Source of the DNA: an uncultured Acetobacteraceae bacterium
Lineage (GTDB): Bacteria > Pseudomonadota > Alphaproteobacteria > Acetobacterales > Acetobacteraceae
Direction: 5' to 3'
Length of the DNA stretch: 64,000 nucleotides
NCBI GenBank assembly: GCA_903907955.1
Contig: CAIVPZ010000082.1
Span: forward strand, 1 to 64,000
The position numbers were made by a program, and so were the translations under genes. Under the pieces are notes generated by a model. The model worked only from the letters and a program-made list of their open reading frames with translations. It made no database searches and was not told the origin of the DNA. Positions 6,197 through 16,962 of this stretch are shown here, in pieces (position 1 is the first letter of the stretch; each line of letters opens with the position of its first letter).

Positions 6197-7015
6197 TCAG
6201 CGCCCGTCCGGCGTGACGTCGCGCAGGTAGGCCGCCAGCCCGCGCGACGCATCCCATTGCCGGGCGTAGCCCAGCGATACTTCCTCGAACCGCGTGCCGC
6301 CGCGCCGGTCGGTGCGGCGGACATGCAGATGGCCGCTCACCGCCAGCACGGCGCCGAAGCGGACCGGCCAGTCCCCGGTGCGGACGCTGCCGCACCATGG
6401 GGAAAAGCGGGGAATGCGCGGGATGTGCACCAGGTCCTGCCGCAGCGGGTAGTGGCTGACCAGCACCGTGCCGGCCCCCGGCGGCACCTCGCGCGCGAGG
6501 CGTTGTTCGGCCGCCGCGCACAGTTCGGCGCACCATTCCTCGATGTGGCCGAACGGGGCAGGGCGGATCAGGCGTTCGTCGGCGCTGACGCAGCGCGTCT
6601 CGGCGGCCCAGCGCAGCACCGCCTCGCGGGCCACCGCGGGCGGACGGAAACTGTAGTCGAAGGTGGTGAACAGCGGCGCCACCACCGGTCCGCCGCCGGG
6701 CCAGCGCGGGTAGGGATCCTCCGGCGTGTCCACCCCGGCGCGCCGGGCCGCTGCCACCAGGGCGGCGTATTTCGCGGCACTGCTCGCCGCGCCGCCGTCG
6801 CGGCCGGTCAGCCAGAGTTCATGGTTGCCCGGCGCCCACAGCACACGGGCGAACCGCGCGGCAAGGAAGGCCATCGCCTCGGCGAACAGCGGCAGCGATT
6901 CGCACACGTCGCCGGCCACGATCAGCCAGTCCCCGGGCCGGGCGGGCAAAGCGCGCAGGGCGGTCCGGTTGCTGTCCACCGCCAGATGCAGGTCGCTGAT
7001 CGCCCACAGCTTCAT
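6197..7015 (-). CDS. Metallophosphoesterase, PptH-like
   Basis: A 272-residue calcineurin-type phosphoesterase. Metal-binding motifs are visible: D8-x-H10, GD36, GNHE (63-66), H188 in VSHYP and GHLH (228-231). The surroundings (LWAISDLH, DDW-like GDWLIVAGDV, APGNHELW, a TPEDPYPRW segment and FTTFDYSF) resemble the actinobacterial Rv2795c/PptH group, which removes phosphopantetheine from holo-acyl carrier proteins. The gene is divergent from an Sfp-type phosphopantetheinyl transferase whose start lies about 50 bp away, the same partnership as pptT-pptH in mycobacteria. The function is therefore inferred as phosphopantetheinyl hydrolase; the fold is certain, the substrate is not. Confidence 0.85.
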   Translation of the reverse strand: MKLWAISDLHLAVDSNRTALRALPARPGDWLIVAGDVCESLPLFAEAMAFLAARFARVLWAPGNHELWLTGRDGGAASSAAKYAALVAAARRAGVDTPEDPYPRWPGGGPVVAPLFTTFDYSFRPPAVAREAVLRWAAETRCVSADERLIRPAPFGHIEEWCAELCAAAEQRLAREVPPGAGTVLVSHYPLRQDLVHIPRIPRFSPWCGSVRTGDWPVRFGAVLAVSGHLHVRRTDRRGGTRFEEVSLGYARQWDASRGLAAYLRDVTPDGR

Positions 7016-7065
7016 GCTGCCGCCTGCTGTTCCTCGTAAAGCCGCATCCGCCTATCCTCGGCCCG

Positions 7066-7824
7066 ATGAGCGCCGCCGCCAACCCCGTGCCCGCCATCGC
7101 GGTGCGCGTCTGGACCATGACCACCGCCGGCCTGGACGAGGCGGCGGTCGCCCCGTGGGCGGGCCTGCTCGACGCCACCGAGCGCGCTCGCGCTGCCCGT
7201 TTTGTCTTTTCCCATAGCCGCATTGCCTTCATCGCCGCCCACGCGCTGGCCCGCGCCGCCCTGGCCGCCGCCGCCGGCGCGCCGCCTGCCGCCTTCGCGT
7301 TTGCCGCCGGCGCGCACGGCAAGCCGGAGGCGCTGCTGCAGGGGCGGTCCGCCGGGCTCGCCTTCAACCTCTCGCACACCAACGGGCTGGTCGGCGTTGC
7401 CGTCGCGGCGGTGCCCGGCCTGCCACTCGGTATTGATCTGGAGCCGGTGGACCGGCGGGCGCCGATGGAGGTGGCGCGCCGTTACTTCACCGATATCGAA
7501 ATCGCCTGGCTGGAAGGGCTGCCCGAGGCAAGGCGGGGCGAAGGGTTCTTCCGCCTGTGGACGCTGAAGGAGGCGTTCATCAAGGCGACCGGCAAGGGGC
7601 TGACGCAGGACCTGTCCAGCTTCTGGTTCCGTGTCGATCCGCCTGCCATCGCCTTCGCGCCCGAACTGGCCGGGCGGGCGGAGGACTGGAGCTTTGCCCA
7701 GCGCATCGTGCATCGCGGCTTTCTCGTCGCGATCGGCCTGTGCGGTCAGGGGGCCTGTATCGACGCTGCCTGGCGCGAACTGGACCCTGCCGGTTTCGAT
7801 CCGGCCGCCGGGCTGGGCTGGTAG
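7066..7824 (+). CDS. 4'-phosphopantetheinyl transferase, Sfp/PptT type
   Basis: A 252-residue protein of the Sfp class, which moves phosphopantetheine from CoA to a serine of carrier proteins of fatty-acid, polyketide or peptide synthases. The N-terminal half contains the HGKP motif (84-87) and NLSHT (101-105). The magnesium site is G-I-D124-L-E126, and the C-terminal helix motif is W165-T-L-K168-E169-A. These are complete, so it should be active. It is read divergently from the PptH-like hydrolase and shares its ~50-bp promoter region. No polyketide or peptide synthase gene lies in this window. Confidence 0.9.
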   Translation: MSAAANPVPAIAVRVWTMTTAGLDEAAVAPWAGLLDATERARAARFVFSHSRIAFIAAHALARAALAAAAGAPPAAFAFAAGAHGKPEALLQGRSAGLAFNLSHTNGLVGVAVAAVPGLPLGIDLEPVDRRAPMEVARRYFTDIEIAWLEGLPEARRGEGFFRLWTLKEAFIKATGKGLTQDLSSFWFRVDPPAIAFAPELAGRAEDWSFAQRIVHRGFLVAIGLCGQGACIDAAWRELDPAGFDPAAGLGW

Positions 7825-9659: not shown

Positions 9660-11315
9660 TCACGCGGCGCTTTTCCGGGCGAACCTTAACGCGGCATCGA
9701 CCACCGCCTGACCCTGAGCACGGTCGGCGAAGGCGAGGCTGACGCGGTTGACGGAACGGGAGACGATGCGCGCCTCGATGCCTGCCGGCATGCCCGGCAG
9801 TTTGAGTTTCACCCCCTCGATACCCGGTGGCAGCCGCGCGGCGTCCAGGCGCATGGCGGCGCCGCCGGGCGAGACATCCTGCAACTGGCCCGGAACGCTG
9901 CCCGAGGCGGTCTCCAGCGTGGCGTCGATGCGCACCTCGTGGCGTGGTTCCTCGCGACGTTCGGCCAGACGGATCTTGTTCATGAAGCCGATCTTTTCCT
10001 GCTCCAGCGTCTGCGCGGCCTGCAGCAGGCCGTCCGACGCATCGGCGACGCCGTGGGCGTTCTGCGCCGTGCGATCGGCCACGGCCTGCATCTCGCGCGC
10101 GCCATCGCTGACCCCGCCGGCGCCGGCGGCGGCGGCGGCAACCGAGCGGCTGATCTCCTGGGTGACCGCGCTCTGCTCCTCCACCGCGCCGGCGATCGCC
10201 GCGGTGGCCTCGCGCACGCGATCGACGGTGCGGGCGATTTCGCCCATGGCGGTGGCGATCTGCCCCACCACGCCCTGCACGGCGCTGACCTGGGTGCGGA
10301 TGTCGTCGGTGGCGCGGGCGGTCTGCGCCGACAGGCCCTTCACCTCGCCGGCCACCACGGCAAAGCCGCGCCCGGCCTCGCCGGCACGCGCCGCCTCGAT
10401 GGTGGCGTTCAGCGCCAGCAGGTTGGTCTGCCCGGCGATGTTGCTGATCAGGCTGACCACGTCGCCGATCCGCGCGGCGGCGGAATTCAGCGTATCGACG
10501 ATGGCAGTGGCGCGCCGCACCGTCTCCACCGCGCCGGTGGTGACGGCGGCGGCCTGCTGGGTCTGGCGGGTGATCTCGCCGATCGAGGCGGTGATCTCCT
10601 CGGCCGCCGAGGCGACCGTCTGCATTTCGGCCGAGGACCGCTCGGTGCCGCCGGCCACCAGTTCGGCCTGGCGGGTGGCGGTTTCGGCATTGTCCTGCAA
10701 TCCGCCGGCTTCCTGGCGCAGGGTGCCGGCGCGGGTGTTCACCTCGTCGGTGAAGCGCGATACCACGGCACCGAACTGGGCGGACAGATTGTCGAGCCGG
10801 TCGCGATACTCGCTCTCCAACTTGTTCATGTAGGCGCCGACCACCTGCTGAAGATCGAACAGCACCGCGCGATCGATGGCGCGGATCGCCGTCTCGGCCC
10901 GCGCGCGCGCCGCGGCGCCGCCGAAGCGGGTGCGGTACTCCGCCAGCACCGTCGCGTGCATTTCCTCCAGCACCACCAGATACGATCCGATGTAGTAGCG
11001 GGGCTGCAGCCCGATGCCCGCATGCGCCAGCGCCACCCGCTGCACGGACTGCACGTAGTCGCCATCGTAATTGGCCGAGAACAGGCGGCGCCAGTGCTCG
11101 CCCTGGCGGGCGCGTGCATGCGTGCGGCGCTCCGGGCTGGCGAACAGGCCCTTCAGGTCGGGCCACGAATCCATGTGGCCATACAGCACGTCCAGCATGC
11201 GGGCGCCGTGGGTCTCGATCAGCGGCAGCAACTGCCGCAGCGTGGCGCGCGTCGCCTCGTCGAGGCGGACGTAGGTCAGGTCGTCCGCAAGCTCTGCCTT
11301 CAGTTCCGTCTTCAT
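9660..11315 (-). CDS. Globin-coupled methyl-accepting chemotaxis protein with C-terminal PilZ domain
   Basis: A 551-residue soluble receptor with no membrane segment. Residues 1-165 are a globin-coupled sensor domain with the proximal heme histidine at H98 ([17 protein letters not shown]). Residues about 170-445 are an MCP signalling coiled coil with its hairpin tip at 288-322 ([18 protein letters not shown]). Residues 452-545 are a PilZ domain with R454-xxx-R458 and D480-x-S482-xx-G485, which should bind cyclic di-GMP. It would pass oxygen (HemAT-like) signals to CheA and respond to c-di-GMP. No che genes lie nearby. Confidence 0.9.
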
Positions 11316-11346
11316 CTGTCCGCGCCTGTGCTGGTCGGGCGCACAC

Positions 11347-11360
11347 CATGCCGCGGCATG
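11347..11360. promoter_or_regulatory. 14-bp perfect palindrome in divergent promoter region
   Basis: CATGCCGCGGCATG lies 32-45 bp before the receptor start and 153 bp before the dppA-like start. It has the form of a repressor operator, but no matching regulator is known and it could be chance in GC-rich DNA. Confidence 0.25.
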
Positions 11361-11512
11361 CGTTAAGAAGCGGTTTCATGTTGGCAGGGAGGGCGCCCGA
11401 TCCTGCGGGTCAGCCACCGCGCGGTTGTGAGCCGGCCGGCCTGCTTCTATTCATTCCACGGGCGCATGTGCTGCCCGGCATGTGCCGTTCGGACCCGGAG
11501 GAGAATGCTGCG

Positions 11513-13117
11513 ATGAGAACCGGATGGATCGTGGCCGCTGCCTGCGCGGCCGTGCTGGCGGGCGCGGCGGTGCCGCCGGCGCAGGCGAAGACGAAAACCC
11601 TCGTCTACTGCTCCGAGGGATCGCCCGAGAATTTCAACCCGATGATCAACACCACCAACACCACATTCAACGCCAATTCCCCGGTCTATGGCCGCCTCGC
11701 CGATTTCAATGACGGCACCACCGAAGTGGCGCCCGGCCTCGCCGGGAGCTGGGACGTCGCGGCCGATGGCCTGACCATCACTTTTCACCTTCGCCACGAC
11801 GTGAAGTGGCATTCCAACAGGTATTTCAAACCGACCCGGAATTTCAACGCCGATGATGTGCTGTTCAGCTTCGGGCGGCAGTGGAAGGACGACAATCCCT
11901 ACCACCATGTCTCGGGCGGCGGGTATGACTACTTCAACGACATGGGCCTGCCAGCCCTGCTCGAGAGCATCGATCGTATCGATGACGACACGGTGCGGTT
12001 CCGCCTGAAGCAGCCGCAGGCGCCGTTCCTGGCCGACATGGCAATGGATTTCGCCGCCATCCAGTCAAAGGAATACGCCGACACGCTGGCCCGGCTCGGC
12101 CGGCCCGAGCTGATCGACCAGGAGCCGATCGGCACCGGCCCGTTCGAGTTCGTCGCCTACCAGAAGGACAGCACCATCCGCTATCGCGCGTTCCGGGATT
12201 TCTGGGGCGAGAAGCCGAAGATCGATGCGCTGGTGTTTGCCATCGTCAAGGACCCGGCGGTGCGGCTGGCCAAGCTGCGCGCCAACGAATGCCAGATCGC
12301 GCCCTATCCGAATCCCGCCGACCTGCCCTCGATCCGTGCCGACCAGGACCTGCAGTTGCTGTCGCAGCCCGGGCTGAACATCGGCTACCTGGCGTTCAAC
12401 AATCTCCGGCCGCCGTTTACCGACCGGCGGGTGCGCCAGGCGATCACCTACGCCATCGACAGGGCGGCGATCCTGACCGCGATCTACCAGGGGGCGGGGC
12501 AGCCGGCGAAGAACCTGATTCCGCCGACGCTGTGGAGCTACAACGACAGCGTGCAGGACTGGCCGTACGACCCGGCGAAGGCGGTCGCCCTGCTGGCCGA
12601 GGCCGGCTACCCGAACGGCTTCGAAACCACGCTGTGGGCCATGCCGGTGCAGCGCCCGTACAACCCCGATGCCCGGCGCATGGCCGAAATGATGCAGGCC
12701 GATCTCGCCCGCATCGGCGTCAAGGCGAGCATCGTCAGTGCCGAATGGGGCGAATACCGCAAGCGCGTGCAGAACGCCGAGCACGGCATGGCGCTGCTGG
12801 GCTGGACCGGCGATAACGGCGACCCGGACAATTTCTTCGTGCCGCTGGCCGGCTGCGACGCCGCGCGGATCGGCGGCGGCAGCGCCTCGAAATGGTGCAA
12901 CCCGGCCTTCGAGACGCTGGTCAAGCAGGCCGTCGTGCTGACCAGCCAGGCCGAACGGGCGAAACTCTACGAGCAGGCGCAGTTGATCATGCACGCGGAG
13001 GCGCCGTTCGTCTTCATCGCCCATTCGGTGGTGTTCCTGCCGATGCGCAAGGAGGTCAGCGGCTTCAGGATGAGCCCGGTCGGCCGCCTGCGGTTCGACC
13101 GGCTTGAGCTGAAATAG
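11513..13117 (+). CDS. Peptide/nickel ABC transporter substrate-binding protein (DppA-like)
   Basis: A 534-residue family-5 extracellular solute-binding protein. Residues 1-25 are a signal peptide ending in AQA. The mature protein opens with TLVYCSEGSPENFNP, contains PIGTGPFEFVAY and FTDRRVRQAITYAIDR, all typical of DppA/OppA proteins, and has the family's usual length. The ATG at 11513 has a GGAGGAGA site. It is the first gene of a five-gene operon with two permeases and two ATPases (11513-16962), all overlapping by one to four bases. The likely substrate is di- or oligopeptides, but family-5 proteins also bind other ligands. Confidence 0.92.
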   Translation: MRTGWIVAAACAAVLAGAAVPPAQAKTKTLVYCSEGSPENFNPMINTTNTTFNANSPVYGRLADFNDGTTEVAPGLAGSWDVAADGLTITFHLRHDVKWHSNRYFKPTRNFNADDVLFSFGRQWKDDNPYHHVSGGGYDYFNDMGLPALLESIDRIDDDTVRFRLKQPQAPFLADMAMDFAAIQSKEYADTLARLGRPELIDQEPIGTGPFEFVAYQKDSTIRYRAFRDFWGEKPKIDALVFAIVKDPAVRLAKLRANECQIAPYPNPADLPSIRADQDLQLLSQPGLNIGYLAFNNLRPPFTDRRVRQAITYAIDRAAILTAIYQGAGQPAKNLIPPTLWSYNDSVQDWPYDPAKAVALLAEAGYPNGFETTLWAMPVQRPYNPDARRMAEMMQADLARIGVKASIVSAEWGEYRKRVQNAEHGMALLGWTGDNGDPDNFFVPLAGCDAARIGGGSASKWCNPAFETLVKQAVVLTSQAERAKLYEQAQLIMHAEAPFVFIAHSVVFLPMRKEVSGFRMSPVGRLRFDRLELK

Positions 13118-14121
13118 TGCTGCGCTTCCTGCTGCGGCGCCTCGGGCTGATCGTGCCGACCTTCGTCGGCGTCACCCTGCTCAGCTTCCTGCTGATCCAC
13201 CTGGTTCCGGGCGACCCGATCGAGGTGCGGGTCGGCGAGCACGGCATTGCGCCGGCGCGGCTGGCGGCGCTGCGCCACACCTTCGGTCTCGACCAGCCGC
13301 TGTGGAAGCAGTTTCTCGATTACGAGGCGGGAGTGGTCACCGGCGGGCTGGGCGTGTCGGTGGTGACGCGCCAGCCGGTGTGGGACGAGTTCGCCACGCT
13401 GTTTCCGGCGACCCTGGAGCTTTCCCTGTCGGCCATCACGCTGGCTTTGCTGGTCGGCCTGCCGCTTGGCATCGTCGCCGCGGTGAAGCGCGGTTCGGTG
13501 TTCGACACCGGGCTGATGGGGGTGTCGGTCACCGGGGCTTCCATGCCGATCTTCTGGTGGGGTCTGATGATGATCCTGGTGTTCTCGGTGACATTGGGAT
13601 GGACGCCGGTGTCCGGGCGCATCGGCGACATGTATGACGTGCCGCCCTGGACCGGGTTCATGCTGATCGATTCGTGGTTCAGCGACGACGAGGGCGCTTT
13701 TTCTTCCGCGGTCAGCCATCTGATCCTGCCGGCGATCGTGCTGGGCACGCAGCCGCTGGCGGTGGTGGCGCGGATGACGCGGTCGGCCATGCTGGAGGTG
13801 CTGGGCGAGGATTATATCCGCACCGCCCGCGCCAAGGGGCTGTCCGGCGGGCGGGTGGTGGTTGTGCATGGGCTGCGCAATGCACTGATCCCGGTGGTGA
13901 CGGTGGTTGGTTTGCAGGTCGGGGCGTTGCTGGGCGGGGCGATCCTGACCGAGACCATCTTTTCCTGGCCCGGGGTGGGGCACTGGCTGGTGGAGAGCAT
14001 CCAGCGCCGCGACTACCCGGTGCTGCAGGGCGGCACGTTGCTGGTGGCGAGTTTGGTTATCCTGGTCAATCTGGCGGTGGACATGCTGTACGGCGTGCTG
14101 AACCCGCGGATTTGCCGATGA
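13117..14121 (+). CDS. ABC transporter permease, DppB-like
   Basis: A 334-residue inner-membrane permease with about six transmembrane segments. The start MLRFLLRRLGLIVPTFVGV and the signature EDYIRTARAKGLSGGRVV (the EAA loop contacting the ATPases) are typical of DppB. The GTG start at 13117 shares one base with the stop of the binding-protein gene. It forms the transmembrane channel with the next gene product. Confidence 0.92.
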   Translation: MLRFLLRRLGLIVPTFVGVTLLSFLLIHLVPGDPIEVRVGEHGIAPARLAALRHTFGLDQPLWKQFLDYEAGVVTGGLGVSVVTRQPVWDEFATLFPATLELSLSAITLALLVGLPLGIVAAVKRGSVFDTGLMGVSVTGASMPIFWWGLMMILVFSVTLGWTPVSGRIGDMYDVPPWTGFMLIDSWFSDDEGAFSSAVSHLILPAIVLGTQPLAVVARMTRSAMLEVLGEDYIRTARAKGLSGGRVVVVHGLRNALIPVVTVVGLQVGALLGGAILTETIFSWPGVGHWLVESIQRRDYPVLQGGTLLVASLVILVNLAVDMLYGVLNPRICR

Positions 14122-15032
14122 CTTTGCGGAATGGGGTCAAGGGGTCCACCGACCCCTTGCGGGTCCAGGGCAGCGCCCTGGCCTTGCTTTCCTTCTGGTG
14201 TCGTTTTGCCGAAAACAAGGGTGCCGTTCTCGGCTTGGCGTTCCTGTGTGTTATTTTGTTTTTGGCTCTGGCTGCCGGCATTGTCGCCCCGCATTCCCCC
14301 ATCGAGCAGTATCGCAGCGCGTTTCTGACCCCGCCGGTCTGGCAGCAGGGCGGCAGCTGGAATTTTGTCCTCGGCACCGATGATGTCGGCCGCGATCTGC
14401 TTTCGCGTCTGATCCATGGCGCCCGCCTGTCGCTGCTCATCGGCCTGTCCGTCGTGGCCCTGTCGCTCTCCTGCGGCACCGTGCTCGGCCTCACCGCGGC
14501 GTTTGCCGGCGGGGTGGTGGACGGCCTCATCATGCGGCTGATGGATGTGCTGCTGGTGTTCCCCAGCCTGCTGCTGGCGATCGTCATCGTTGCCATTCTC
14601 GGCCCCGGCCTGTTCAACGCCATGCTGGCGGTCGCTATCGTCATGCTGCCCGGCTATACGCGGCTTTCCCGTGCGTCGGCGCTGGGGGAACTGGCCCGCG
14701 ACTACGTCACCGCCACCCGCTGTGCCGGCGCCGGCCACCTTTACCTGATGTTCAACACCGTGCTGCCGAACTGCCTGGCGCCGCTGATCGTGCAGGCATC
14801 GCTCGGCTTCTCCGGCGCCATTCTCGACGCCGCTTCGCTGGGTTTTCTTGGTCTGGGCGCCCAGCCGCCGACGCCGGAATGGGGCACCATGCTCGCCGGC
14901 GCGCTGCAGTACTACCAGCGCGCCTGGTGGGTGCTGACTTTCCCCGGCCTCGCCGTCCTGTTCACCGTGCTGGCCTTCAACCTGTTCGGCGACGGGCTGC
15001 GCGATGCCCTCGATCCGAAGCTGAGGCGCTGA
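14118..15032 (+). CDS. ABC transporter permease, DppC-like
   Basis: A 304-residue permease with the [18 protein letters not shown] motif near its start, six membrane segments, the EAA loop ([16 protein letters not shown]) and the C-terminal [14 protein letters not shown] ending typical of DppC. Its ATG overlaps the stop of the upstream permease (ATGA). The first twenty or so codons ([18 protein letters not shown]) are encoded by a copy of a dispersed hairpin repeat (14133-14182). The natural family N-terminus probably corresponds to the part from about residue 24, and the repeat seems to have been captured as coding sequence. Confidence 0.9.
14133..14182 (+). repeat. GGGGTCC-type hairpin repeat, copy 1 (inside dppC-like gene)
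   Basis: This ~50-bp segment matches, in inverted orientation, the segment at 17543-17594 with a handful of differences. Both contain GGGGTCCACCGACCCC and a GGGCAGCGCCC-like palindrome. Here it lies in frame within the 5' end of a coding region. Confidence 0.75.
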
Positions 15033-16000
15033 TGCCGCTGCTGGAAGTCCGCAACCTTTGCATCGCATTCGCCACCGCACGCGGTTGCTTCCGCGCCGTC
15101 GATGGGGTCGATATCACCCTGGAGGCCGGCGAGGTGCTGTGCATCGTCGGCGAATCCGGCTCCGGCAAGAGCGTTTCGATGCTCGCCGCCATGGGGCTGA
15201 TCGGCTGGCCCGGGCGGGTGAGCGCCGAGGCGATGCGGTTCGCCGGCACCGACCTGCTGTCCCTGTCGTCACGCCAGCGCCGCCAACTGGTCGGCAAGGA
15301 CATGGCGATGGTGTTCCAGGAGCCGATGTCCAGCCTGAACCCCTGCTATCCGGTGGGCTGGCAGATCGCCGAGGCACTGCGCACGCACCATGCCGTGCCG
15401 CGCGCCCGGGTGCGCGACCGCGTGGTGGAACTGCTCGAGCAGGTTGGCATTCCCGCCCCCGCCACCCGGCTGGGGGCGTTCCCGCACCAGTTGTCCGGCG
15501 GCATGAACCAGCGGGTGATGATCGCCATGGCGATCTCCTGCAGTCCCGCGCTGCTGATCGCCGACGAGCCCACCACGGCGCTGGACGTGACCATCCAGAA
15601 GCAGATTCTCGATCTGCTGGTGGCGTTGCAGCGTCAGCGCGGCATGGGGCTGGTGCTGATCACCCACGACATGGGCGTGGTGGCGGAAACGGCGCATCGC
15701 GTGCAGGTGATGTATGCCGGCCAGATGGTGGAGGAACAGCCCACCGCCGCCCTGTTCGCCGCGCCGCGCCATCCCTACACCGCTGCCCTGCTCGACGCGC
15801 TGCCGGAGCGCGCCATCGGCCGCGCGCGCCTGCCCACCATCCCCGGCGTGGTGCCCGGCATCGACGACCGCCCGCAGGGCTGCCTGTTCAACCCGCGCTG
15901 CCGGTACGCCGACGACCGCTGCCGCACCGAGCCACCGGCGCTGGCCGGTGCGCCCGGGTGGCGCGCCCGCTGCCATTATCCGCTGGCGGTCGGACCATGA
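15032..16000 (+). CDS. Peptide ABC transporter ATP-binding protein, DppD-like
   Basis: A 322-residue ATPase. Walker A GESGSGKS, the signature [15 protein letters not shown], Walker [13 protein letters not shown] and the switch His in LITHDMG are all present. A C-terminal oligopeptide-transporter extension has cysteines ([15 protein letters not shown]) that in this family can bind an iron-sulfur cluster. Start overlaps the previous stop (TGATG). Confidence 0.93.
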
Positions 16001-16962
16001 CCGTGCTCATGCAGGCCGAGGCGCTGCACCGCCACTACCCGGTCAGCGGCGGCCTGTTCGGCAAGCCGGGCCTGGTCCGCGCGATCGACGGCGTGTCCTT
16101 CGTCCTGCGGCAGGCCCAGACGCTCGCCATCGTCGGCGAATCCGGCTGCGGCAAGTCCACCCTGGCCCGCATGGCCACGCTGATGGAACCGCCCACCGGC
16201 GGCGAACTGCTGATCGACGGCACCCCCACCGCCACCGCCAGCGAAGCCGAGCGTCGCCGCCTGCGCCGCAACGTGCAGATGGTGTTCCAGAATCCCTACG
16301 GCTCACTGAATCCGCGCAAGACCGTGGGCGCCATCCTGGAGGAGCCGCTGGCGCTGAACCAGCGCGGCGACCGGTCCGCCCGCGAGCGCGCCGCGCGTGC
16401 CATGATGGAGCGGGTCGGGCTGCACCAGGACCATTACGACCGCACCCCGCACATGTTCTCCGGCGGCCAGCGGCAGCGCATCGCCATCGCCCGCGCGCTG
16501 ATGCTCAACCCGCGCATCGTGGTGGCCGACGAGCCGGTCTCGGCGCTGGACGTGTCCATTCAGGCGCAGGTGCTGAACCTGATGATGGATTTGCAGGACG
16601 CGTTCCGGCTGGCCTTCCTGTTCATCAGTCACGATCTCGGCGTGGTCCGCCACATTGCCCACGACGTGCTTGTGCTCTACTGCGGCCGGGCGGTCGAATA
16701 TGCCAGCAGGCAGGATCTGTTTGCGGCGCCGTGCCATCCCTACACGCGGGTTCTGCTGGCCGCCACCCCCAGCATCGATCCGCGCCACCGCAAGCAGGCC
16801 GTCGCTGTGAAGGGCGAACTGCCCTCGCCGCTGAACCCGCCGGCCGGCTGCGCCTTCGCCTCCCGCTGCCCACACGCAACTGTGCGCTGCACCGCCGAAC
16901 GTCCGGCCTGGCGCGGCATCGGTGGCCGTGGCGTCGCCTGCCACCATGCCGAGGCAATGTGA
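15997..16962 (+). CDS. Peptide ABC transporter ATP-binding protein, DppF-like
   Basis: A 321-residue ATPase, partner of the DppD-like subunit. It shows Walker [10 protein letters not shown], the [12 protein letters not shown] stretch of the DppF group, signature [15 protein letters not shown], Walker [13 protein letters not shown] and switch His in FISHDLG. The C-terminal extension has the [14 protein letters not shown] cysteine cluster. Its ATG overlaps the previous stop (ATGA). It ends the operon. Confidence 0.93.

Follow-up and report, generated by a model that had tools for sequence, protein, structure and literature searches.

A PptH-family metallophosphoesterase gene divergent from an Sfp-type phosphopantetheinyl transferase gene in an Acetobacteraceae genome: a likely writer/eraser pair for carrier proteins

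Within the window, by which we mean the whole 64,000-nucleotide stretch of DNA analyzed here (contig C82 of a draft genome of 4.64 Mb in 176 contigs, whose nearest named relatives are Acetobacteraceae), the gene of a PptH-family metallophosphoesterase (MPE) lies head to head with that of an Sfp-type 4'-phosphopantetheinyl transferase (PPTase). We consider it highly probable that the two products form a writer/eraser pair acting on carrier proteins, one attaching and the other removing their 4'-phosphopantetheine (Ppt) arm. Family membership, catalytic residues, purifying selection, retention of the pair by every MPE-bearing species of the genus, and recurrence of PPTase neighbors beside this MPE family in several lineages are observed; the reaction, substrates and purpose we infer. 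As writer, the PPTase would transfer Ppt from CoA to the conserved serine of apo-carriers, namely, the fatty-acid synthesis carrier AcpP and that of one type I polyketide synthase, the sole carriers found in this genome, while the MPE, a predicted binuclear metal hydrolase, would act as eraser by cleaving the Ser-Ppt phosphodiester to return the carrier to its apo form. The likeliest purpose would be fine adjustment, or resetting, of carriers on which a promiscuous Sfp/PptT-type PPTase has acted.

Table 1. Coordinates of the divergent locus in the window
Feature	Position	Strand	Details
PptH-family metallophosphoesterase (MPE), predicted 4'-phosphopantetheinyl hydrolase of carrier proteins	6197..7015	-	272 aa; PF00149 8.4e-13
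Sfp/HetI-type 4'-phosphopantetheinyl transferase (PPTase)	7066..7824	+	252 aa; PF01648 5e-18, PF22624 3.5e-6
Divergent intergenic region (ATG to ATG)	7016..7065	.	50 bp; 65, 65, 59 and 18 bp (the last across an assembly break) in four related species
TATCCT, -10-like hexamer, candidate leaderless promoter	7053..7058	+	five-species sequence comparison

The MPE scored over the Pfam cut-off for Metallophos (PF00149), and its best sequence match among all PDB chains, as determined with phmmer, was 6unc (E 1.5e-62, residues 3-270), deposited as 'Phosphopantetheinyl Hydrolase (PptH) from Mycobacterium tuberculosis', PptH being Rv2795c. A profile built from 26 family members retrieved the same structure at 1e-125, with all other matches no better than 0.003. 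The AlphaFold2 model of the window MPE (pLDDT 92.8) matched 6unc with a TM score of about 0.9 (Foldseek E 1.9e-28) and 42% identity running end to end, compared with TM scores of 0.35-0.48 and Foldseek E values of 1e-6 or worse for Rv0805, LpxH and GpdQ. When a tree was built with 15 further MPEs, drawn from the window genome, a mycobacterium-like one and a Myxococcus, the PptH-family clade that includes the window protein stood far from all of these, the very long outgroup branches leaving the rooting inside the family unsure. Of the eight PF00149 proteins encoded by the window genome, a single one belongs to the PptH family.

The presumptive active site is preserved as well. Residues D7, H9, D35, N63, H64, H187, C207, H228 and H230 (window numbering) are invariant in both 26 and 41 family members; C207 aligns with C225 of PptH, and H228/H230 align with its H246/H248. 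In PptH, the H246N and C225R substitutions inactivate or are predicted to inactivate the enzyme (PMC8557913). The window protein thus shares with PptH its fold, metal ligands and active-site cysteine, is closer to it than to any other MPE, and differs in lacking a C-terminal extension of about 40 aa. On these sequence and structural grounds we assign it to the PptH family as a PptH-type hydrolase (PTPH), with the activity of that class, Mn/Fe-dependent removal of Ppt from holo-carriers, as its predicted function. The original prediction, which described an MPE of the PptH group carrying the motifs LWAISDLH, GDWLIVAGDV and PGNHELW head to head with an intact PPTase, was borne out on each point: both open reading frames, all three motifs, and Pfam matches above cut-off were found, and sequence, tree and predicted fold support the family assignment.

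One might argue that the protein is an ordinary calcineurin-like phosphoesterase (LpxH, Rv0805 or GpdQ) with merely generic resemblance to PptH, given that PF00149 metal motifs are common to those families and that TIGR03729 gave a weak match (4.7e-6). We find this hardly credible, since sequence, profile, tree and fold all point to PptH; no clustering with LpxH or other MPEs was seen in the tree, and LpxH and cyclic-nucleotide phosphodiesterases were rejected as identities by fold and family profile.

Turning to the putative writer, the PPTase matched ACPS (PF01648) over the Pfam cut-off and NCBIfam HetI at 1.7e-27, yet below the HetI cut-off, and matched Sfp (1qr0) at 3.4e-12. It has the pseudo-dimeric halves (PF22624 plus PF01648) and the D-x-E and WxxKEA motifs of an Sfp-type (group II) enzyme, and retains the Mg-binding and catalytic motifs of Sfp (GIDLEP; WTLKEAFIKATGKGL), with GIDLEP and WTLKEAFIK aligned with 1qr0. 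The N-terminal domain of PptT-type enzymes, 4PPT_N (PF17837), was not found in it by Pfam, in contrast with the PptT-like partners at three other loci (L087, L100 and L150). Thus, the window PPTase is of the Sfp/HetI type, marked by PF22624, whereas the mycobacterial partner is of the PptT type, marked by PF17837.

The window PPTase is the sole PF01648 match genome-wide, and no second PPTase was detected; likewise, each of six other genomes of the genus has a single match. Carrier domains detected in the window genome are those of AcpP, whose gene adjoins a ketosynthase gene, and of one type I polyketide synthase. A precedent is PcpS of Pseudomonas aeruginosa, a sole PPTase of the Sfp type that acts on the fatty-acid ACP as well as in secondary metabolism (PMC8433221); the likeness lies in both being Sfp-type enzymes and, as far as detected, the sole PPTase of a proteobacterium. 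By analogy with PcpS, the window PPTase, as the only one detected, should serve the fatty-acid ACP, so that the pair probably controls how much of AcpP, and of one polyketide synthase, is in the apo or the holo form. As for the eraser, PptH removes Ppt from carriers of E. coli, Klebsiella and Pseudomonas in vitro (PMC8557913), which by analogy would make AcpP a reasonable substrate of the window MPE. On a separate note, locus L165, on contig C172 of the window genome, holds a type I polyketide synthase fragment that has enoylreductase and carrier domains; directly after it comes a gene that, judged by eye, is alpha-oxoamine-synthase-like, possibly making up a small biosynthetic cluster.

Both genes are under purifying selection. 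Between five species of the genus, dN was 0.09-0.23 against a dS of 0.44-0.71 for the MPE, and 0.10-0.30 against 0.52-1.01 for the PPTase. An apparently broken MPE gene in one of these genomes (G001) was a false alarm, the in-frame 'TAA' being its own stop codon, slightly earlier. All five MPE-bearing species retain the divergent pair, which answers the question of whether related genomes keep it, with intergenic gaps as listed in Table 1; the pair and 18-bp gap of G002 rest on an assembly break, because the genes lie on two contigs with overlapping ends. The MPE is missing from 2 of the 7 genomes of the genus and is thus dispensable.

Could this divergent neighborhood be incidental, reflecting two unrelated housekeeping genes that were never separated? 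The layout is limited to the window's genus, and G027, a genome of the same family, has both genes on different contigs, unlinked. In addition, a scan of the 50-bp intergenic region found no divergent sigma-70 consensus promoter pair, that is, no shared promoter motif. However, the pair has stayed together while its neighbors differ, since of the window's neighborhood G003 keeps the pair alone and G004 the pair plus a PH-domain gene, and MPEs of this family adjoin PPTases in other lineages and layouts far above chance (see below). We therefore regard incidental linkage as very improbable. With respect to expression, each of the five species has a -10-like hexamer (TATCCT, TAATCT or TATTCT) 7 nt upstream of the PPTase start codon, a sequence feature that suggests a leaderless PPTase transcript. 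Co-regulation of both genes by a single promoter region, as proposed in the original prediction, may hold, though the scan above gave it no promoter pair.

The unlinked arrangement in G027 comes with an observation of its own. There, the PPTase gene (L160, contig C73) lies within a few kb of an ABC-transporter operon similar to that at 10754-16959 of the window, which is 3-9 kb from the window PPTase and shows 31-48% identity to its G027 counterpart. This shared context hints that it was the MPE that moved next to the PPTase in the window's genus.

PptH has been called 'unique to mycobacteria' in a 2021 study that contrasted it with AcpH in Gram-negatives (PMC8557913), and none of the open-access texts searched describes it elsewhere; subscription papers, including those on its discovery (2019/2020) might mention it. 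Contrary to that description, the family is present in several phyla. Members were detected in 54 of 198 sampled actinomycete genomes, in 6/398 Pseudomonadota and 12/385 Alphaproteobacteria (both counting the window genome; 5/397 Pseudomonadota besides it), and also in Myxococcota and Acidobacteriota. Six actinomycetes (G092, G184, G190, G238, G277 and G292) carry two copies, and in those whose coordinates were checked, such as G092 and G238, one copy adjoins a PPTase and the other does not, suggesting duplicated erasers. A further record, 'Comamonas sp. KCTC 72670' (L031), is probably mislabeled or contaminated: its MPE falls within Myxococcus in the tree, the flanking genes match Myxococcus, and the genome measures 9 Mb.

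Linkage to a PPTase likewise recurs outside the genus. Among 30 actinomycete loci, which were the best PptH matches and not a random set, 23 had a PptT-type PPTase adjoining PptH on the same strand, in the order MPE then PPTase, and this held for both mycobacterium-like and Streptomyces-like genomes. The window locus resembles this PptT/PptH pair of mycobacteria, Streptomyces and other actinomycetes in that writer and eraser, the former a group II enzyme, are neighbors; it differs in that the genes are divergent rather than co-directional and that the MPE occupies a separate branch of the tree. Random samples of Pseudomonadota and Alphaproteobacteria gave 14 other genomes with the MPE, and in 7 of them a PPTase, confirmed by Pfam in each case, directly adjoins it. 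The pair is convergent in four of these (G551, G783, G875 and G751) and co-directional in G629 (PPTase first) and G990 (MPE first). The remaining case, the alphaproteobacterium G656 (locus L150), has an actinomycete-type PptH with a co-directional PptT-type PPTase downstream, likely a horizontally transferred actinomycete operon. Assuming at most three PPTases per about 4000 genes, the chance of such adjacency in 7/14 genomes is 6e-17, or 2e-14 with the sister genomes G783 and G875 merged.

All linked PPTases examined were long group II enzymes, none AcpS-like. In a tree of 77 family members, the arrangement labels require 13 changes: divergent pairs group in a single clade (97/90), the convergent layout has two origins, and co-directional pairs that do not belong to the actinomycete clade sit on two distinct branches. 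The pairing may thus have been gained repeatedly, or an old linkage may have been rearranged and lost. A pairing specific to the genus had been suggested by a narrow profile of the window PPTase, a view overturned by a wider profile applied to randomly sampled genomes. Of the original prediction, then, the part that extended the pairing beyond mycobacteria held, including for other alphaproteobacteria, but the divergent layout proved not to be general: in the genomes seen only this genus has it, and other lineages show a co-directional pair, a convergent one or none.

MPE and PPTase were not seen side by side in any of 27 genomes (beta-, gamma-, other alpha-, myxo- and acidobacterial), a few of whose contigs end near the MPE. 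The unlinked copies of beta-, gamma-, myxo- and acidobacteria, and that of G027, imply that the MPE can play its role without a neighboring PPTase. The neighbors of unlinked MPEs were unrelated and offered no rival theme in Nisaea, Myxococcus, Acidobacteriota, betaproteobacteria, Streptomyces and Micromonospora; they included an MFS transporter, FGGY and PfkB kinases, M50 and M4 peptidases, XdhC, SpoIIE, a transpeptidase and SHMT.

This wide and often unlinked occurrence across phyla could also be read as a sign that the MPE, though of the PptH family, acts on some other Ppt- or CoA-related phosphodiester, examples being dephospho-CoA, free acyl-phosphopantetheine or CoA breakdown, with carriers affected only indirectly. 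The window MPE is, after all, only 42% identical to PptH, and PptH itself is slow on bis-pNPP (PMC8557913), so the best substrate may differ. Nevertheless, the active-site residues and many others are unchanged between the window protein and PptH of M. tuberculosis, PptH is active on several holo-carriers (PMC8557913), and the recurrent neighbor is a PPTase, not a CoA enzyme. We accordingly judge a different substrate improbable and favor carrier proteins as the target of the predicted eraser.

AcpH, the HD-type ACP hydrolase of E. coli, also removes Ppt from holo-ACP (PMC8557913). The predicted reaction of the window MPE is the same, but fold and family (PF04336 for AcpH) are unrelated. AcpH was not detected in the window genome nor in any of 76 genomes tested (38 MPE-bearing and 38 MPE-lacking), with E. 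coli as a positive control. An anti-correlation between the PptH-type MPE and AcpH was therefore dismissed, AcpH being missing with and without the MPE alike; its absence from both genome sets means that mutual replacement of the two hydrolases cannot be shown.

Why would a cell retain an enzyme that reverses an essential modification of its carrier proteins? The present locus bears on this question; the 2021 study found PptH to have no role in CoA salvage or mouse infection (PMC8557913). We tentatively suggest, as a possibility of rather low probability, that PptH-family enzymes widely serve promiscuous group II PPTases as quality-control partners. A PPTase serving the whole carrier proteome would at times load wrong arms (acyl-, oxidized or damaged Ppt), which the hydrolase would strip to reset the carrier. 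Such a role would explain the repeated adjacency to Sfp/PptT-type PPTases in several layouts, with none seen beside AcpS, and the lack of a clear phenotype under normal growth. The pairing also bears on drug action, as PptH activity sensitizes M. tuberculosis to partial PptT inhibition (PMC8557913). The presence of the family in several phyla, repeatedly beside a PPTase, opens the writer/eraser cycle to study in harmless bacteria, and, since in this genus the partner is the only PPTase detected per genome, the effect on the fatty-acid ACP should be directly measurable.

Lastly, a single protein encoded on the minus strand at 9660-11315 of the window combines a protoglobin domain, a methyl-accepting signaling domain and a C-terminal PilZ domain, which makes it a globin-coupled sensor whose tail may bind cyclic di-GMP.
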